The notes under the pieces: generated by a model | What the model was told of the DNA's origin: nothing | Database searches by the model: none | Seen by the model: only the letters and a program-made list of their open reading frames with translations | Part shown: piece by piece, positions 6,240 to 62,949 of the stretch | How positions within the stretch are numbered: the first letter of the stretch is position 1 | Layout: every line of letters begins with the position of its first letter | Program-made: the position numbers and the translations under genes | DNA from: Paenibacillus humicola | Lineage (GTDB): Bacteria; Bacillota; Bacilli; Paenibacillales; Paenibacillaceae | DNA: 64,000 nt | Direction: 5' to 3' | Assembly (NCBI RefSeq): GCF_028826105.1 | Contig: NZ_JAQGPL010000001.1 | Location: 559,501 to 623,500 of the forward strand

Positions 6240-7430
6240 TTATTTCATGCTGCCGGCATTGTCCGTAAAGGCGCGGAACGGAAACCAGATGTAGAAAAAG
6301 GCGATCACCGCATACATCACCGCGGTATACCAGACGACCGCCGATTCGCCCTGCCACGACGCGAGCGTGCCGCCGGCGACCGGCCCGATCATGCCCCCGA
6401 TTCCTTCGACCGTGGAGAAAATGCCCCAGCCGAGCCCTTGCTGCCCCTTGGGCACGTAGTTGGCGAGCAGCGCGTTCCAGGCCGGGAGCAGCGTGGCGTA
6501 AGAGAGGCCGAGCAGGCCGGCCAGCGCGATGCTTTCCCACAAGGGCGGTTCCAGCGCAAGGCAGTACAGCGACGCCCCGATCAGGCCGAAGCCGAGTACA
6601 AGAAACCATTTCTTGCCGCCGAGCTTGTCCGAGAGCCTGCCGAGCGGGATCAGTCCGAGCGCCGTCAAGCCGCCCCCCGCAAGCATCAGCATCGAATACT
6701 GCGTGCCGTTCATGCCGAGCCGGCCTTCCGCAAAGCTGGGCAGAATCGGCACGAGCATGCCGGCTCCGCCGGTCTGCAGCACCATTCCGGGAAGGAGCAG
6801 CCGCATATGGCGCAGCCGCTCCTTCAGCACGGCGAGCTGCTCGCGCAGCGGCAGCCGCTCGACCGACGCGGACTGGCCGCCCGCGATCAGCAGCGACAGC
6901 AGCCAGCTTGCGATCGCCAGCGCGAGCAGCAGGTAATAGGTGAGCTGCGTGCTGTAGTCAAGCAAAATATTGCTGGCGACGGGACCCGCTCCGAGCCCCA
7001 GGAGCCAGATTGTATACAGGAAGCCCATCTGCGTCGCGCGGCGGTCCTCCGTCACCTTGGTCAGGCAGACGATCCAGATCGGCGAGATGCCGACGCCGTA
7101 AAGCGCCGCGGCGACGATGAACAGCCAGGGCTGGAAGGCGAACTGGAACAAAAATACGCCCGCGAGCGATGCGAGCAGCCCGCCGTTCACGACGAACCGG
7201 ACGGAGAAACGGTCGAGCAAATAGCCGATGGCCATTTTCAGCAGCGTATCGGTGAGATAGTGGGCGGTGACGGCGACGCCGATCACGTCCAGCGTCAGGC
7301 CGAGCGACTTGACGCCGAAGATCGGCAGAAAGCTGCCGAGCACCGCGCCGCGAACGAGCTCGACGAGAAACAGGATCAGGATGAACAGCATCATTTCCGG
7401 ACTGAGCCAGCGGCTGCGAACAGGATTCAC
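6240..7430 (-). CDS. Major facilitator superfamily transporter
   Basis: A 396-residue protein with about 12 membrane helices and the MFS loop motifs GYLLDRFSVR after helix 2 and GRLSDKLGGKKW in the second half. This fits a drug or solute antiporter of the DHA type; the substrate is unknown. Translation starts with GTG at 7430 behind AAAGGGGA. The gap to the DedA-like gene is only about 23 bp and to the preceding glycosyltransferase 64 bp, so the three genes likely form one transcript. Such neighbours suggest lipid or cell-envelope roles, possibly lysophospholipid transport. Confidence 0.85.
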   Translation of the reverse strand: MNPVRSRWLSPEMMLFILILFLVELVRGAVLGSFLPIFGVKSLGLTLDVIGVAVTAHYLTDTLLKMAIGYLLDRFSVRFVVNGGLLASLAGVFLFQFAFQPWLFIVAAALYGVGISPIWIVCLTKVTEDRRATQMGFLYTIWLLGLGAGPVASNILLDYSTQLTYYLLLALAIASWLLSLLIAGGQSASVERLPLREQLAVLKERLRHMRLLLPGMVLQTGGAGMLVPILPSFAEGRLGMNGTQYSMLMLAGGGLTALGLIPLGRLSDKLGGKKWFLVLGFGLIGASLYCLALEPPLWESIALAGLLGLSYATLLPAWNALLANYVPKGQQGLGWGIFSTVEGIGGMIGPVAGGTLASWQGESAVVWYTAVMYAVIAFFYIWFPFRAFTDNAGSMK

Positions 7431-7494
7431 GATAAACGGTCCCCTTTGAATCTATTTGAACGGGCTTGCCGCTTGCGCAGGAAGGAGCGGAAGT

Positions 7495-8670
7495 TCACCG
7501 GCGCCCGAGTTCGCCCAAAGCTCCTTCCATTATATGCAAGCTGGAGCAAAAGTCCAAGGCAACCGTATCCGCGGCGCTTCCGTGCTGCAGCTTCCGAAGG
7601 GCATGCCGGCTAGTCTTTAAACGAATGGGATCGCCGAGGAGTTTCAAAATTTCTTCGCAAAGCTGATCCGGCGTGCAGGCGATCGTCGCGGCCCCCTGGC
7701 CGGCGAGATACAGCGCGTTGTTGCGCTCCTGGCCGGGGACCGGCTTATAAGCGAAGATCGGCAGCTCCGCGGCGAGCGCTTCAGCCAGTGTGACGCCGCC
7801 CGGCTTCGTTACGATGCAGCTCGCAACGGCCATCAGCTCGTGCATCCGCTCGACGAAGCCGAACACGCGCAGCCGATCCGCTTCCGGCCGCCCGGCGAAC
7901 AGCGAGCGAATTTGGCGGGCAAGCGTTTCGTTGCGGCCGCACACGAGCGCGACGGTAAGCTGCGGCTGCTTCAGCAGAGCGGCGATGACGCCGGCCAGGC
8001 CGGGCAGGACGCCGCGGGCGCCGGCCATCAGCAGCACGACCGGCCCGCTTTCCGGCAGGCCGTAAAACTTCCGGAGCCCGGGGGCTGGAGCGACGGAGCG
8101 GAAGCCGGATTTAAGCGGGATGCCGCTGACGCAGATGCGGCTGTCCGGAATGCCGAGCGAAATCAGCTCGCGGCGCATATCCTCGGTCGGGACGTAATAA
8201 CGGTCGATATCGGGGTGAACCCAGCGGCGGTGCAGGTCAAAATCGGTCACGACCGTGCAGGTCGGGATGTGCAGGCCGGTGCGCCGCTTTAAGGCGGGCA
8301 TCGCCAGCAGGGGAAAGGTATGAATGACGGCATCGGGACGCTCCTCGCTCAGCAGCCGGCGGAGCCGGTCGCGGCCAAACGAATGGAGCCATTCCGCAAA
8401 TAGCGAATCGTGCTTCATCGGGCGGGTGCGGTCGTAGAGCCAGCCGTACAGGCCGGGCATGAGGGTGAAGCTTTTCATATAGAAGCGGCGGGTCATCCCG
8501 TTTATCCACGGATGAGCTTCCGCAAGCAGGTCGACAAGCACGGTCCGGCCGATGCCCAGGCTTTCGAGCGCGTCGCGTAAGGCGCAGGCGGCCTGCAGGT
8601 GTCCTTCTCCATATGAGGCATACAAAATCATCAGCTTGGGCCGGCATGCAGCGGTCAGACTGGTCAGCAT
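7495..8670 (-). CDS. UgtP/MGDG-synthase-like diacylglycerol glycosyltransferase
   Basis: A 391-residue GT28/MGD family protein. The N-terminal domain begins LMILYASYGEGHLQAACAL, the signature of monogalactosyl/processive glucosyl diacylglycerol synthases. The C-terminal donor-binding domain has TKPGGVTLAEALAAELP (about residues 310-326) and PVPGQERNNALYL. By family it would transfer hexose from a UDP-sugar to diacylglycerol, giving glycolipids and lipoteichoic-acid anchors. The ATG at 8670 has AGGAGGT upstream; a longer frame to 8733 lacks such a site. It is the first gene of the operon with the MFS and DedA-like genes. Confidence 0.83.
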   Translation of the reverse strand: MLTSLTAACRPKLMILYASYGEGHLQAACALRDALESLGIGRTVLVDLLAEAHPWINGMTRRFYMKSFTLMPGLYGWLYDRTRPMKHDSLFAEWLHSFGRDRLRRLLSEERPDAVIHTFPLLAMPALKRRTGLHIPTCTVVTDFDLHRRWVHPDIDRYYVPTEDMRRELISLGIPDSRICVSGIPLKSGFRSVAPAPGLRKFYGLPESGPVVLLMAGARGVLPGLAGVIAALLKQPQLTVALVCGRNETLARQIRSLFAGRPEADRLRVFGFVERMHELMAVASCIVTKPGGVTLAEALAAELPIFAYKPVPGQERNNALYLAGQGAATIACTPDQLCEEILKLLGDPIRLKTSRHALRKLQHGSAADTVALDFCSSLHIMEGALGELGRR

Positions 8671-31817: not shown

Positions 31818-31892
31818 CATACGGTGTGTGACTGGCGTGACATGGGACGAACCATGGGGGAGCATACCGCGAAACGGCCGTACGCCTGGGCA
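31818..31892 (+). promoter_or_regulatory. ZTP (pfl) riboswitch
   Basis: All conserved blocks of the pfl/ZTP aptamer are visible in order: GTGTGTGACTGGCG, then the short GACATGGGACGAACCATG hairpin, GGGGGAGC and, after a variable loop, CGCCTGGGCA. The ligand ZTP/ZMP accumulates when 10-formyl-tetrahydrofolate is short. The terminator that follows directly is the expression platform, and ligand binding would turn on the AICAR transformylase gene downstream, which uses exactly ZMP and 10-formyl-THF. Confidence 0.94.
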
Positions 31893-31926
31893 AAAGTATT
31901 CGGATGTTCATCTGAATACTTTTTTC
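31892..31926 (+). terminator. Terminator/expression platform of the ZTP riboswitch
   Basis: AAAAGTATTCGGATG pairs with CATCTGAATACTTTT across a two-base loop and runs into a T-tract. The 5' arm begins immediately after the aptamer's CCTGGGCA, so pseudoknot formation can compete with it. Confidence 0.88.
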
Positions 31927-57370: not shown

Positions 57371-57377
57371 TCGGGCC

Positions 57378-57393
57378 GACTGGATGACTGGAG
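57378..57393 (+). promoter_or_regulatory. Tandem ACTGGA leader motif of ssuE (candidate attenuator element)
   Basis: GACTGGATGACTGGAG begins at the predicted transcription start and runs straight into a terminator hairpin. The same arrangement with GACCGGACTACCGGAG occurs on the minus strand upstream of the monooxygenase at 62779. See findings. Confidence 0.55.
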
Positions 57394-57424
57394 GCCGGCG
57401 CACTTCTTGTGCGCCGGCCTTTTG
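57392..57424 (+). terminator. Leader terminator of ssuE
   Basis: A 12-bp stem AGGCCGGCGCAC / GTGCGCCGGCCT with loop TTCTT, then TTT. It lies about 15 nt after the predicted start site and 45 bp before the ssuE ATG, so it would end most transcripts unless bypassed. Confidence 0.8.
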
Positions 57425-57468
57425 CCGTTGCCGGCGCCCGTCTGAATTCCATGCGAGGAGGAACAGCA

Positions 57469-57951
57469 ATGAGCAAAGCGGTTATCTTTTCCGGCAGCCC
57501 TTCCAAGACGTCGCGTTTGAACGGACTTCTGGAAGCCGCCGCGAGAGAGTTTCGCGGATCGGGCGTTCACGTCGACGCCATACAGGTGGCGGATCTTCCC
57601 GCCGCCGATCTGATTTTCGCCAATTGGGAAAGCCCCGAGGTGATCGCGGCCCATGCGCTTATCGGGCAGGCCGATGCCGTCATCGTCGCGAGTCCGGTCT
57701 ATAAAGCCGCCTATTCGGGCGTGCTTAAAACGTACCTCGATCTGCTCCCGCAGAAAGGCCTCGCGGGCAAAATCATTCTGCCGCTGTTCATCGGCGGCTC
57801 GATCGCCCATTTGCTGGCGGTCGATTACGCGCTGAAGCCGGTCCTTTCGGCGCTCGGCGCCCATTACCAGCTGGGCGGCGTTTACGCCGTCGACAAGAGC
57901 GGACAGCCAGCGGCGGCTTCCGGCTGGATGACGAGCTTGCCGCAAGGCTGA
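57469..57951 (+). pseudogene. ssuE: NADPH-dependent FMN reductase (SsuE-like), C-terminus frameshifted
   Basis: A flavodoxin-like FMN reductase supplying FMNH2 to a sulfonate monooxygenase. AVIFSGSPSKTSRLNGLL is the phosphate loop, SPVYKAAYSGVLKTYLDLLP the flavin motif, and LPLFIGGSIAHLLAVDYALKPVL the later core. After DKSGQ (about 57905) the frame gives 15 unrelated residues and stops at 57951. Shifting by -1 restores a normal amphipathic end (RLDDELAARLSAAVLELAEL) to TAG 58017. The core is intact, so residual function is possible. ATG 57469 behind GAGGAGG. Confidence 0.75.
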
Positions 57952-58035: not shown

Positions 58036-59148
58036 ATGGCAAAAAGACAGTGGCATCTGAACGCTTTTCTCATGAGCAACGGCCATCACGAAGCGTCGTG
58101 GCGGCATCCCGATTCCGAGCCGGAACGGGTGACGGATATCCATATCAGCGACGGCCGGGCCGGCTGAAACATCGTCACCTCCGGCAGCGAGGCGGCGGCG
58201 TTAAATTTCAGCCGGGACGATCACCTGGAGCATTCGGAGCGCTACCGCCGGGCCAAAGAGTTCGTCGATGTCGTGACGGGGCTTTGGGACAGCTGGGAGG
58301 ACGACGCCCTCGTCCTCGACAAGGAGGCCGGCATCTTCGCGAACCCCGGGAAGGTACACGAAATCAACCACCGGGGCGAGCGGTTTTCGGTCAAAGGGCC
58401 GCTGAACGTGCCCCGCCCTCCGCAGGGCTACCCGGTGCTCGTATAGGCCGGCTCATCGGAAAGCGGCAGGGCATTCGCCGCTTATTCGGCGGAGGCGATC
58501 TTTACCGCGCAGCAGACGCTGCAGGAAGCGCAGGCGTTCTACCGGGACGTGAAAGGCCGGCTTGCCGCGTACGGCCGGAGGCCGGAGGAGCTGGTTATTC
58601 TCCCGGGCATCAGTCCCGTCATCGGAGCCACCGAAGCCGAAGCGAAGGAGAAGGAGGCCCGCCTGCACGGGCTGACCATTCCGGCGTACGGGATTGCCCG
58701 CTTGTCCAATTTGCTCAAGGTCGACTTGTCCGGCTATCCGCTCGACGGTACGCTGCCGCTGTCGGAGCTGCCGGACGTGAACGCCGTCAACGGCAACAAA
58801 AGCAGGTTCCAGCTGGTCGTCGACATGGCGTCCCGCGAAAATTTGACGATCCGCGAGGTCATCCTGCGCACGGCCGGCGGAAGAGGTCATATGACCTTCG
58901 CGGGGACGGCGGTTCAGGCGGCGGATGTGACCGAAGAATGGTTCACCGAAGGCGCGGCCGACGGCTTCAATGTGATGCCTCCTTATTTTTCGGGTGAGCT
59001 GGAGGATTTCGTGAACCTGGTCATTCCGGAGCTGCAGCGCCGGGGGCTGTTCCGCACCGAATACGAGGGGACGACGCTGCGCGGCCATCTCGGGCTCGCC
59101 CGTCCGGCGGGGCGCATCAGCGGTCTGGCGGCGGCAGCCAAAGAGTAA
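58036..59148 (+). pseudogene. Flavin-dependent sulfonate/organosulfur monooxygenase, degraded
   Basis: A luciferase-like monooxygenase of the NtaA/SnaA/DmoA group, 371 codons from ATG 58036 (AGGAGG upstream). Compared with the intact paralogue at 61421-62779 (452 residues), it lacks about 81 codons after SWRHPDSEP. It has TGA at 58165-58167 where the paralogue has Trp (GRAAWNIVT) and TAG at 58444-58446 where it has Gln (VVIQAGSSE). Apart from these the frame is open to 59148. Both stops are single transitions. The enzyme would be inactive. Confidence 0.9.
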
Positions 59149-59186
59149 ATCGCTCCGAAGCGGATAACGCCCCCCTTTTGACAGGC

Positions 59187-60316: not shown

Positions 60317-61393
60317 TTACTTGCCTTCCTTCAGCTCCTTCAGCGCCTGATCGACGAACCGGCTGTCCAGCACCTGCGACGTATCGAGCTTCTTGTTGAT
60401 CGCCCCGACGGAATAGAGGAAGTCGGCCTGCTCCTGATGAACCTTGGCAAATTCGGGCGTGATCGGCGACAGCAGCGGCTCGGATTTCTGAAGCACCTGA
60501 AGCACGATGTTTTTGTCCAGCTTGTTCGTTTTGGACAGCATATCGGCGACTTCTTCCAGATGAGAGGCGTAATACTCGCGTACTTTCTCGTACTCTTTCA
60601 GGAACAGTACCGTAAGGTCCGGATGCTCCTCGGTAAATTTGGTTCTCGCAATCAGGAAGCCCGGGGCGAAAATGTTCAGGTCCTGTCCTGTGACAAGCAC
60701 AAGGTCCCCGCTCTGAACGACGGCCGTCGTTACATAAGGCTCCCAAACCGACCAGGCGTCGATGGCGCCCGTGTCGAGTGCGGGACGGGCCTCGTCCGGC
60801 TGAAGCTGTATGATCTGCACGTCCTTGTCGGTAAGACCGGCTTTCTCGAGCACGCGGTAAAGGAAGTTGTAGGCGCTGCTGCCTTTGGCGACGGCGATTT
60901 TTTTACCCTTTAAATCTTTCATGTCTTTAATGGCGCTGTTTTTGGGCAGGACGATGGCATTGCTTTTCTTTCCGTCGCCGGTGACGGCGATCGCCTTGAA
61001 GTCGACGCCTCCCGTCTGACCGGAAATAACAGGCGTGCCGCCGACGGACCCGAAGTCGAGCCGGCCCGAAGCGAGTGCCTCGAAATGGGGCGGACCGCTG
61101 GCGAATTCATACCATTTGACCTCGGCGCCCGCTTCGGCGAAGGCTTTATCGAAAGCTTTCGTCTCCCGCGCGTAGTATAAAATGCCGGTATTGCCCTGAA
61201 CCCCGATATTAACCGTCACTTTCTCCTTTGGCTTGCCGCCCGGGCCCGAAGCGGTTCCGGACGGCTCGTTGGAGCCTCCGCCGGAAGCGCCTCCGCCGCT
61301 CCCCGCGCTGCACGCCGACAGCAGTCCGGCGCATAGGACGGCAATGATTCCGAATACCATCGTTTTTCTAATGTTCTTTTTTTTGCTGTTCAT
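60317..61393 (-). CDS. ssuA: Aliphatic sulfonate/nitrate-type ABC substrate-binding lipoprotein (SsuA-like)
   Basis: A 358-residue binding protein with lipobox LLSAC (Cys 28) and a Gly/Ser-rich linker. The NMT1/SsuA-type core includes EVKWYEFASGPPHFEALASGRLDFGSVGGTP, shown by its start and end, and KIAVAKGSSAYNFLYRVLEKAG, YVTTAVVQSGDLVLVTG. By family it delivers alkanesulfonates or related sulfur compounds to an SsuBC importer, whose genes are not in the window. It lies 27 bp after the monooxygenase gene on the minus strand and is cotranscribed with it. ATG behind GAGAGGGG. Confidence 0.85.
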   Translation of the reverse strand: MNSKKKNIRKTMVFGIIAVLCAGLLSACSAGSGGGASGGGSNEPSGTASGPGGKPKEKVTVNIGVQGNTGILYYARETKAFDKAFAEAGAEVKWYEFASGPPHFEALASGRLDFGSVGGTPVISGQTGGVDFKAIAVTGDGKKSNAIVLPKNSAIKDMKDLKGKKIAVAKGSSAYNFLYRVLEKAGLTDKDVQIIQLQPDEARPALDTGAIDAWSVWEPYVTTAVVQSGDLVLVTGQDLNIFAPGFLIARTKFTEEHPDLTVLFLKEYEKVREYYASHLEEVADMLSKTNKLDKNIVLQVLQKSEPLLSPITPEFAKVHQEQADFLYSVGAINKKLDTSQVLDSRFVDQALKELKEGK

Positions 61394-61420: not shown

Positions 61421-62779
61421 TTATGTAGGCTCGCCGGCCTGCCGCAGCGCCGCAAACCGGTTCGCCGGCCGCTTCAGCCCCAGATGATCGCGGAGCATGC
61501 TTCCCGTATATTCGGTGCGGAACAATCCCCGGCTTCTCAGCTCGGGCAGCACCAATCGGATAAAATCCTCCAGCCCTCCCGGGAAATACGGAGCCATAAT
61601 GTTGAAGCCGTCGCAAGCCCCGCCGGTAAACCATTCTTCCAGCCGGTCGGCGATCGTGACCGGCGAGCCGGCGATCGTCCAGTGTCCGCGCGCCCCTGCG
61701 ATGCGGCGGCTTGCTTGCAGAATCGTCAGGCTCTCGCGCCGGGCGAGGTCTGAGATCAGGTGCAGCCGGCCTTTCACGCCGTCGGGCGTTTCCGGAAGCT
61801 CCGGAAAGGGGGCGTCCGGATCAAAGTCGGTCAAGTCGTGGCCGATCATTCCGGAGAGCAGCGCGATGCCCGCGGCTGGGTGGATCAAGCTCTGCAGGTA
61901 GTCGTTCTTTTCCTGCGCCTCCTTGTCGGTCGCGGCGACGACCGGGAACACGCCCGGCAAAATTTTCACGTCGTCCGCCGCCCTTCCGTACCGGACCGCC
62001 CGCGCTTTGACGTCGTCGTGGAACGCTTTTGCTTCGTCCAGTGTCTGCCAGGCGGTGAAGATGACCTCCGCCGTCAGCGCGGCGAAGTCGCGTCCGTCCT
62101 CGGAGGAGCCGGCCTGGATGACGACGGGGCGGCCCTGCGGCGGCCGGGAGACGTTCAGCGGCCCGCGGATGTTGAACCATTTGCCTTCATGATCCGCGGA
62201 ATGGACCTTCGACTTGTCCGCGAAGATGCCGCCTGCCTTATCCAGCACGATCGCGTCATCCTCCCAGCCGTCCCACAGCTTCGTCACGACGTCGATATAT
62301 TCGCGCGCCCGCTCGTAGCGCAGATGGTGCTCCAGATGCCGCTCCTTGCCGTAGTTGGCCGCAGCGCCGCGGTTGGCTGTCGTCACGATATTCCAGGCGG
62401 CGCGGCCGCCGCTCAGATGATCGAGCGTCGCGAACTGGCGCGCGATCGTATACGGCTCGCTGTAGGTCGAGGAGACGGTGCCGGTCAGTCCGATTTTTTC
62501 CGTGACGGCGGCGAGGGCGGACAGCAGGACGATCGGCTCCGGACGTACGGGGGACATATACGACACGGCCGTGTCGAGCTGGTCGGACAGGGCCAGTACG
62601 TCCGCGAAAAAAATCATGTCGAACTTGGCGTCTTCGGCGATGCGGGCCAAGTGCGCATAATGGCGGAAATCCAGAATCCCTTCCGCATTGGCGCCGGGAT
62701 GACGCCACGCGGCCACATGATGGCCGGCCCCGGACAGGAAGGCGCCGAGGCTCATTTGTTTTCTCGTTTCGGTGGACAT
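61421..62779 (-). CDS. Flavin-dependent monooxygenase of the NtaA/SnaA/DmoA (LLM) family, intact
   Basis: A 452-residue luciferase-like FMNH2-dependent monooxygenase. Family blocks: SLGAFLSGAGHHVAAWRHPG at the start, FDMIFFADVLAL near 53, ATLDHLSGGRAAWNIVT near 117, VVIQAGSSEDGRDFAA near 235 and a C-terminal GLEDFIRLVLPELRSRGLF. Relatives desulfonate organosulfur compounds or oxidise chelators such as NTA. It is encoded with an SsuA-like protein, so sulfur scavenging is likely. A leader with promoter, tandem ACCGGA motif and terminator precedes it. The ribosome-binding site is weak. Confidence 0.86.
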   Translation of the reverse strand: MSTETRKQMSLGAFLSGAGHHVAAWRHPGANAEGILDFRHYAHLARIAEDAKFDMIFFADVLALSDQLDTAVSYMSPVRPEPIVLLSALAAVTEKIGLTGTVSSTYSEPYTIARQFATLDHLSGGRAAWNIVTTANRGAAANYGKERHLEHHLRYERAREYIDVVTKLWDGWEDDAIVLDKAGGIFADKSKVHSADHEGKWFNIRGPLNVSRPPQGRPVVIQAGSSEDGRDFAALTAEVIFTAWQTLDEAKAFHDDVKARAVRYGRAADDVKILPGVFPVVAATDKEAQEKNDYLQSLIHPAAGIALLSGMIGHDLTDFDPDAPFPELPETPDGVKGRLHLISDLARRESLTILQASRRIAGARGHWTIAGSPVTIADRLEEWFTGGACDGFNIMAPYFPGGLEDFIRLVLPELRSRGLFRTEYTGSMLRDHLGLKRPANRFAALRQAGEPT

Positions 62780-62824: not shown

Positions 62825-62871
62825 AAAAAAGGAGACCGCCAGCGCTGCAGGTTTGCAGTGCGAAGGTCTCC
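62825..62871 (-). terminator. Leader terminator of the monooxygenase-ssuA operon
   Basis: On the minus strand GGAGACC and GGTCTCC form the base of a hairpin with an inner GCACTGCA...TGCAGCGC pairing, followed by seven T. It lies between promoter and start codon, so it is an attenuator rather than a gene-end terminator. Confidence 0.82.
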
Positions 62872-62883
62872 GGTAGTCCGGTC
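62868..62883 (-). promoter_or_regulatory. Tandem ACCGGA leader motif (candidate attenuator element)
   Basis: The minus strand reads GACCGGACTACCGGAG, ending in the 5' arm of the terminator hairpin exactly as in the ssuE leader (57378-57393). Twelve of the sixteen bases match. Confidence 0.55.
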
Positions 62884-62889
62884 GAATTC

Positions 62890-62949
62890 ATTTAATTCCG
62901 ATTGGAACGGTATGTTATAAAAGGTAGCAGATCGGATTCCATCCGTCAA
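62890..62949 (-). promoter_or_regulatory. Promoter region of the monooxygenase-ssuA operon
   Basis: ATAACA (62913-62918), 17-bp spacer and TTAAAT (62890-62895) would start transcription exactly at the tandem motif. TTGACG (62944-62949) with TACCTT 17 bp on is an alternative giving a longer leader. I cannot choose between them. The rest of the gap to 63141 holds only a weak AAACCCGA/TCGGGTTT hairpin near 63027-63051. Confidence 0.45.

Follow-up and report, generated by a model that had tools for sequence, protein, structure and literature searches.

YezD (DUF2292) as the candidate partner of a conserved RNA hairpin overlapping intrinsic terminators ahead of sulfur-acquisition genes

In Bacillota, S-box (SAM) and T-box leaders place sulfur genes under terminator control. 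In the BglG/LicT systems, which deal with sugars, a short RNA hairpin (the RAT) lies over the 5' arm of a terminator, which is the more stable of the two structures unless a PRD/CAT protein binds the hairpin. The targets of ANTAR proteins consist of two hexaloop hairpins, and HutP, which reads NAG triplets together with histidine, is the product of the first gene in the Bacillus hut operon, the controlled terminator standing between this gene and the metabolic genes. The element described here comes from a leader of Paenibacillus humicola in the window (the whole stretch of 64,000 nucleotides that was analysed) and can be set beside each of these systems. With S-box and T-box leaders it has in common that sulfur genes lie behind a terminator, but no match was obtained in Rfam 15 at the leaders tested: at gathering cut-offs, the window and 18 loci gave one ZMP-ZTP element and two tRNAs, none of them at a leader, and the leader region gave one chance-level match at E<=5. 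As in the BglG/LicT systems, hairpin and terminator 5' arm overlap, and the hairpin by itself is the weaker structure; however, its consensus differs from that of the RAT, the candidate partner belongs to DUF2292 and not to the PRD/CAT proteins, and the genes concern sulfur, not sugars. An RNA hairpin, a terminator overlap and a metabolic regulon are also found with ANTAR, but the present element is a single hairpin with a loop of 4-5 nt in 57 of 58 cases (46 loops of 4 nt, 11 of 5 nt and one of 3 nt, in a search that allowed 3-5 nt) and thus not an ANTAR target. The closest likeness in gene order is with HutP, as the succession of yezD, hairpin and sulfur genes mirrors that of hutP, terminator and metabolic genes, whereas HutP is about three times longer than YezD, a DUF2292 protein, and here one covarying hairpin is also found at unlinked operons. 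In the terms of protein-mediated antitermination, the element is an antiterminator structure that excludes an intrinsic terminator.

An unnamed attenuator ahead of a sulfonate transporter in bacilli was noted by Naville and Gautheret (2010; PMC2965389), and it is possibly an earlier sighting of the hairpin; the relevant part of that paper gives neither a partner nor a mechanism, and the comparison is one of descriptions only. In their passages on point, two noncoding-RNA surveys describe nothing that resembles the hairpin. As for the protein, yezD is listed as "Unknown" in tables, its deletion being without effect on starvation survival (PMC6385201), it appears in further tables (PMC10714963, PMC4591507, PMC11925247, PMC3862929), and DUF2292 is among the genes changed in Pseudomonas fragi (PMC7921472). 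In the parts consulted of the literature searched on the element and YezD, neither the hairpin nor a function of YezD is described, and yezD/DUF2292 occurs in gene lists and tables only. If the reading proposed below is true, it would give a first role to a widespread family of small proteins of unknown function and would add a general RNA-level control of sulfur acquisition to the S-box, the T-box and CymR.

We consider it quite likely that the leader at the monooxygenase-ssuA operon (62.88 kb) is a target of YezD-dependent transcription antitermination for sulfur scavenging. The features of this leader, those of its twin at ssuE and the one Rfam element of the window are the following (bit scores for the hairpins refer to the covariance model R1, see below):

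62863..62889, minus strand: predicted antiterminator hairpin of the leader, GACCGGACTACCGGAG at 62868-62883 plus flanks; R1 27.3 bits
62825..62871, minus strand: intrinsic terminator, GGAGACC...GGTCTCC, GGAGACC being common with the 3' side of the hairpin; six T at 62825-62830
61421..62779, minus strand: gene of a Bac_luciferase-type (flavin-dependent) monooxygenase, downstream of the leader; PF00296, E 4e-48
60317..61393, minus strand: gene of an SsuA/NMT1-like substrate-binding protein, after the monooxygenase; PF09084, E 3.8e-19
57372..57398, plus strand: hairpin of the ssuE leader, GACTGGATGACTGGAG at 57378-57393, lower stem GGCC/GGCC; R1 25.3 bits
57390..57422, plus strand: terminator-like hairpin overlapping the ssuE-leader hairpin and followed by no more than four T
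57469..57951, plus strand: ssuE-like FMN reductase gene; PF03358, E 3.9e-31 on the ORF 57409-57951, ATG read from the sequence
31818-31898, plus strand: ZMP/ZTP riboswitch, 55.8 bits, no other Rfam family reaching its gathering score in the window

The hairpin at 62863..62889 (minus strand) has an upper stem CCGG-ACTA-CCGG, an internal loop GA/A and a lower stem of two pairs only, and 88 nt lie between the end of the GACCGGACTACCGGAG motif and the ATG of the monooxygenase. The first-pass annotation had seen here a second leader of the architecture found at ssuE, with the motif on the minus strand running into an intrinsic terminator, and this holds; a recount of GACCGGACTACCGGAG against GACTGGATGACTGGAG gave the same 12 identical bases out of 16, four being different. 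The terminator GGAGACC/GGTCTCC does overlap the motif as had been stated, with a run of six T, however, and not of seven. The exact ACYGGANNACYGGA occurs twice in the window, and five times if up to one mismatch is accepted, against a shuffle mean of 0.80. Behind ssuE, the frame of a monooxygenase (about 58036-59150, plus strand) has an early in-frame stop, so this operon looks decayed with its leader kept.

The element is present far beyond the window. The exact 16-mer GACYGGANNACYGGAG was listed at 36 places in 21 of 59 genomes (including three places in the own genome) against a single match of the reversed pattern. Within the family, 114 of 295 genomes contain it, and within Bacilli 65 of 299; many of the exact matches fall inside genes and are due to chance. 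The query GACCGGANNACYGGAG followed by a T-run returned at least 118 stretches in named genomes, with titles for 80, and among the matches listed are Paenibacillus, Niallia, Peribacillus, Alicyclobacillus, Butyrivibrio, Ruminococcus, Geobacteraceae, Omnitrophota and Treponema. Altogether, the hairpin ranges over Bacilli, Clostridia, Desulfuromonadales, Omnitrophota and others, where it precedes sulfate, sulfonate, cysteine and methionine genes. The alignment with homologous leaders that the first-pass annotation had called for thus shows an element kept in many taxa, as a covarying hairpin. Its proposal of a dedicated attenuation system on sulfur operons fares well in that the element, together with its terminator overlap, is conserved far beyond the window; a restriction to sulfonate operons is not tenable, since sulfate, cysteine and methionine genes are also involved.

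Clustering of the genes around 108 of 110 confident leaders among the matches listed brought up a recurrent small protein, which was recognised as YezD/DUF2292. The YezD of P. humicola has 55 aa and scores 62.8 bits with PF10055, above the Pfam curated cut-off of 22 bits. Its match (G000:C1:3931182-3931286, minus strand) is the sole PF10055 match of the genome, and it lies between two further copies of the hairpin outside the window, at G000:C1:3930965 and 3932395 (both minus strand), of which the latter is weaker, with its first base changed. When the own genome was searched with R1, a covariance model built from 44 sequences (41 of 56 unique hairpins and three of the own genome, the 3-nt-loop hairpin L419 being left out), four leaders came top at 28.2, 27.3, 25.3 and 21.5 bits, followed by a match at 18.2 bits; these four are the two in the window and the two beside yezD, and three of them, both window hairpins included, sit in the model itself. 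The hydrolase gene just upstream of yezD (L278, about 7360-8200, minus strand) seems to be split over two frames.

A co-occurring gene for a candidate RNA-binding protein was what the first-pass annotation had predicted, and yezD fits this description. PF10055 is found in 120 of 299 Bacilli genomes; of the 14 control genomes, all well known, B. subtilis alone has it. Where a Bacilli genome has an R1 match at E<=1e-3, YezD is present in 71 cases out of 76, and at E<=1e-4 in 58 out of 60. It also occurs in 22 of the 23 Bacilli genomes with motif plus terminator versus 98 of 276 others, a split in which the matches of G108 and G176 and the second matches of some genomes count as no leader. After removal of the 26 genomes that had donated sequences to the model, an R1 match at 1e-3 was obtained in 45/94 genomes with YezD versus 5/179 without it, and at 0.1 the full set gave 100/120 versus 36/179, the Fisher tests of this co-occurrence ignoring phylogeny. 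Sixteen genomes devoid of YezD have an R1 match at 0.01; conversely, 49 of the 120 YezD genomes have none at 1e-3, and 20 have none at 0.1. Among further genomes, YezD was found in 49 of 50 with a leader (chosen by eye, 52 loci having been named at first, of which L204 and L215 were left out; 44 obey the leader rule of the script, and the 32 that carry a taxon title are all outside Bacilli) versus 6 of 25 controls, reached through stray motif matches and chosen by eye as having no leader architecture. One of these controls, L179 from a Cryptobacteroides MAG, does obey the leader rule and comes from a genome with no YezD match, and another, L192, is preceded by yezD at a distance of 84 nt, so that it may be a leader after all. 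At about one locus in three, the gene is moreover a neighbour of the hairpin: among the matches listed, 29 of 81 confident leaders have the end of a yezD gene of the same strand 0-700 nt upstream, in 24 cases within 116 nt, and from the side of yezD a paired hairpin is found within 420 nt in 58 of 163 loci.

It is nevertheless conceivable, although unlikely, that the hairpin works with another RNA-binding factor, YezD being a sulfur-induced passenger of the same operons. A few genomes have the hairpin and no YezD match (the Bacilli G332, G361, G384, G468 and G532, with R1 at E<=1e-3, and the Brocadiaceae MAG L177), as such a factor would allow, and YezD has no recognised fold in the PDB: a fold search with an AlphaFold2 model (36 sequences; one helix and a two-stranded hairpin, pLDDT 76.6, pTM 0.49) returned nothing at E below 0.7, and in sequence searches of the PDB a composite query returned nothing and alignment A1 (31 of 39 YezD frames plus 5 out of 7 proteins, with the omission of five frames whose start was doubtful) returned one chance-level match at E 0.55. 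However, the hairpin is better predicted by YezD than by the sulfate-binding protein, a direct target gene. At E<=1e-3 it was found in 46 of 84 genomes with both YezD and this protein and in 0 of 16 with the latter only (5 of these 16 having weaker R1 matches, E 0.004 to 0.08), whereas in genomes lacking the sulfate-binding protein it was found in 25 of 36 with YezD and in 5 of 163 without it, where the protein was scored by a best E<1e-40, which retains 100 of the 135 genomes with any match. The adjacency of yezD to the leader in several phyla, at distances from 5 nt, also speaks for YezD itself. The one alternative candidate tested, DUF2325 (PF10087), which follows the leaders L087 and L195, was dropped as the factor because the own genome lacks it despite its four hairpins.

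The 95 unique leaders had been selected for a terminator 5' arm that begins at 10-15 nt of the motif, and in 91 of them it begins at 10-13 nt. Among the matches listed in named genomes, the script found a terminator for 109 of 119 motif matches, with the T-run being part of the query, and in 85 the start of the 5' arm, which lies outside the query, is again 10-13 nt into the motif. Since the 3' side of the hairpin is the 5' arm of the terminator, the two structures exclude each other. The folding energies are -24.6 kcal/mol for the terminator versus -5.9 kcal/mol for the hairpin alone in the 62.88-kb leader, and -35.6 kcal/mol (including a small second downstream hairpin) versus -9.8 kcal/mol in the ssuE leader; the lone terminator is thus far more stable, and the hairpin should need help. 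We regard the element as a genuine RNA switch of wide conservation, for which YezD is a very strong candidate protein. The nascent leader RNA would fold either into the small hairpin or into the intrinsic terminator, which uses the 3' strand of the hairpin as its 5' arm. The terminator would win when no protein is there, and the binding of YezD would stabilise the hairpin and prevent the terminator, so that RNA polymerase could read into the sulfonate, sulfate, cysteine or methionine genes. The signal would be sulfur limitation, conveyed through the level of YezD or through a ligand. Binding by YezD, the ON direction and sulfur limitation as the signal are probable, the case for the partner being built on co-occurrence and adjacency. 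More generally, we think it likely that DUF2292/YezD is an unrecognised family of very small RNA-binding antiterminators which, with one covarying hairpin, regulates sulfur acquisition across phyla, including nitrogenase-like reductase operons in anaerobes, acting in trans at operons not linked to yezD and in cis behind yezD itself. With only about 55 aa and 27 nt, the two partners would be simple to test for binding, for structure and with reporters, and the pair of YezD and hairpin could find use as an orthogonal regulator.

A miniature riboswitch with a sulfur metabolite as its direct ligand would also be in line with the spread of the hairpin across phyla under one metabolic theme. With only about 27 nt, a 4-5 nt loop whose middle is variable and a terminator so much more stable than the hairpin, this explanation is quite improbable, and it leaves the tie with YezD unexplained.

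The first-pass annotation had taken a pair of ACYGGA repeats as the unit, which was not borne out. The sequence CYGG-ANNA-CYGG pairs with itself and its C/T variation is what G-U pairs allow, so the motif is read as a hairpin, consisting of a lower stem, a GA/A internal loop, a C-N-N-G stem and a loop that is usually of 4-5 nt and begins with A. In a test that was independent of the motif, loci were taken by their yezD gene (163 loci) and the framework GAC..GA....C..GA was sought within 420 nt downstream. The free dinucleotides were complementary (G-U allowed) at 58 of 66 framework places, against a shuffle mean of 33.8 and a maximum of 43, and at 24 of 32 when CG/CG was left out (shuffle 12.4, maximum 20); three control regions per locus gave 14 framework places, 7 of them paired. 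The upper stem at the yezD loci takes the forms CCGG/CCGG, CCAG/CUGG, CUAG/CUAG, CUGG/CCAG and, once, CUCG/CGAG, and the direct-repeat reading was dropped. The lower stem, which beyond its first pair lay outside the exact-motif query, covaries too: its second, third and fourth pairs are present in 88, 76 and 62, respectively, of the 95 unique leaders (shuffle maxima 74, 68 and 52). The alignment of 44 hairpins, which were selected for pairing in the upper stem, has 71 two-sided-change cells versus 28.8 when shuffled (0/500). That the direct ACYGGA repeats form an operator in the DNA close to the start of transcription, where a repressor or an activator would bind, is very improbable. The motif does stand just past a -10 box, assigned by eye, in several Bacilli leaders, but such an operator has to face, besides the compensatory base-pair changes, the fixed overlap with terminators that are otherwise unlike in sequence and the yezD genes that end 5-10 nt upstream, which would place any separate promoter within yezD. 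Finally, the possibility, raised by the first-pass annotation as a refutation, that the two window leaders might be alike only through recent duplication of the operon, as the related monooxygenases in both might suggest, can practically be dismissed, since the monooxygenase stretches are only ~65% identical in DNA, blastn aligns no leader with the other, and the element stands ahead of unrelated genes in many taxa.

A leader peptide, considered for the Cys codons in L012, was dropped because the other leaders read have no such frame; CsrA and sRNA pairing were weighed as well and set aside.

The genes behind the leaders were surveyed in 96 first downstream frames, leaving out six leaders without a frame by the rule, repeats and two loci below L011. 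With NCBIfam (E<=1e-10, curated cut-offs not being applied and one protein being free to match several families), they include 15 SsuA-type binding proteins, 9 sulfate-binding proteins, 6 NtaA/DmoA monooxygenases, 5 alkanesulfonate monooxygenases and 5 NifH, and Pfam adds 4 PALP enzymes, 4 LysR, 2 TauD and 2 TauE. Three genes for FbpA-like small proteins and four for aldo/keto reductases have no obvious link with sulfur. The FbpA-like proteins, which are small and basic, are encoded behind Bacillus and Peribacillus leaders (L118, L143, L148). Genes for NifH-like reductases stand behind leaders of Butyrivibrio (L104, L126, L158) and Geobacter (L145) and behind L185 and L215; they may be methylthio-alkane reductases, which, if right, would fit sulfur salvage.

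Some leaders depart from the common pattern or carry additional signals. In seven Paenibacillus-type leaders of sulfate-binding proteins (L016, L017, L029, L036, L042, L046, L050), the motif is present and no clear terminator could be seen by eye; control may act there on translation or otherwise. The sequence YGGAAW, presumably resembling the CymR box, occurs within 60 nt upstream of 18 of 95 leaders (shuffle mean 7.0, maximum 14), and these leaders may be under promoter control besides the hairpin. A motif-like GACCGGARRACCGGAG without a terminator is conserved ahead of transaldolase in four genomes of one genus (L070, L072, L073, L074) and is probably unrelated to the element. Genes for DUF2325 follow immediately on the hairpin at L087 and L195 and immediately on yezD at L263-L265, L268 and L272, and another small neighbour protein recurs near leaders at six loci.
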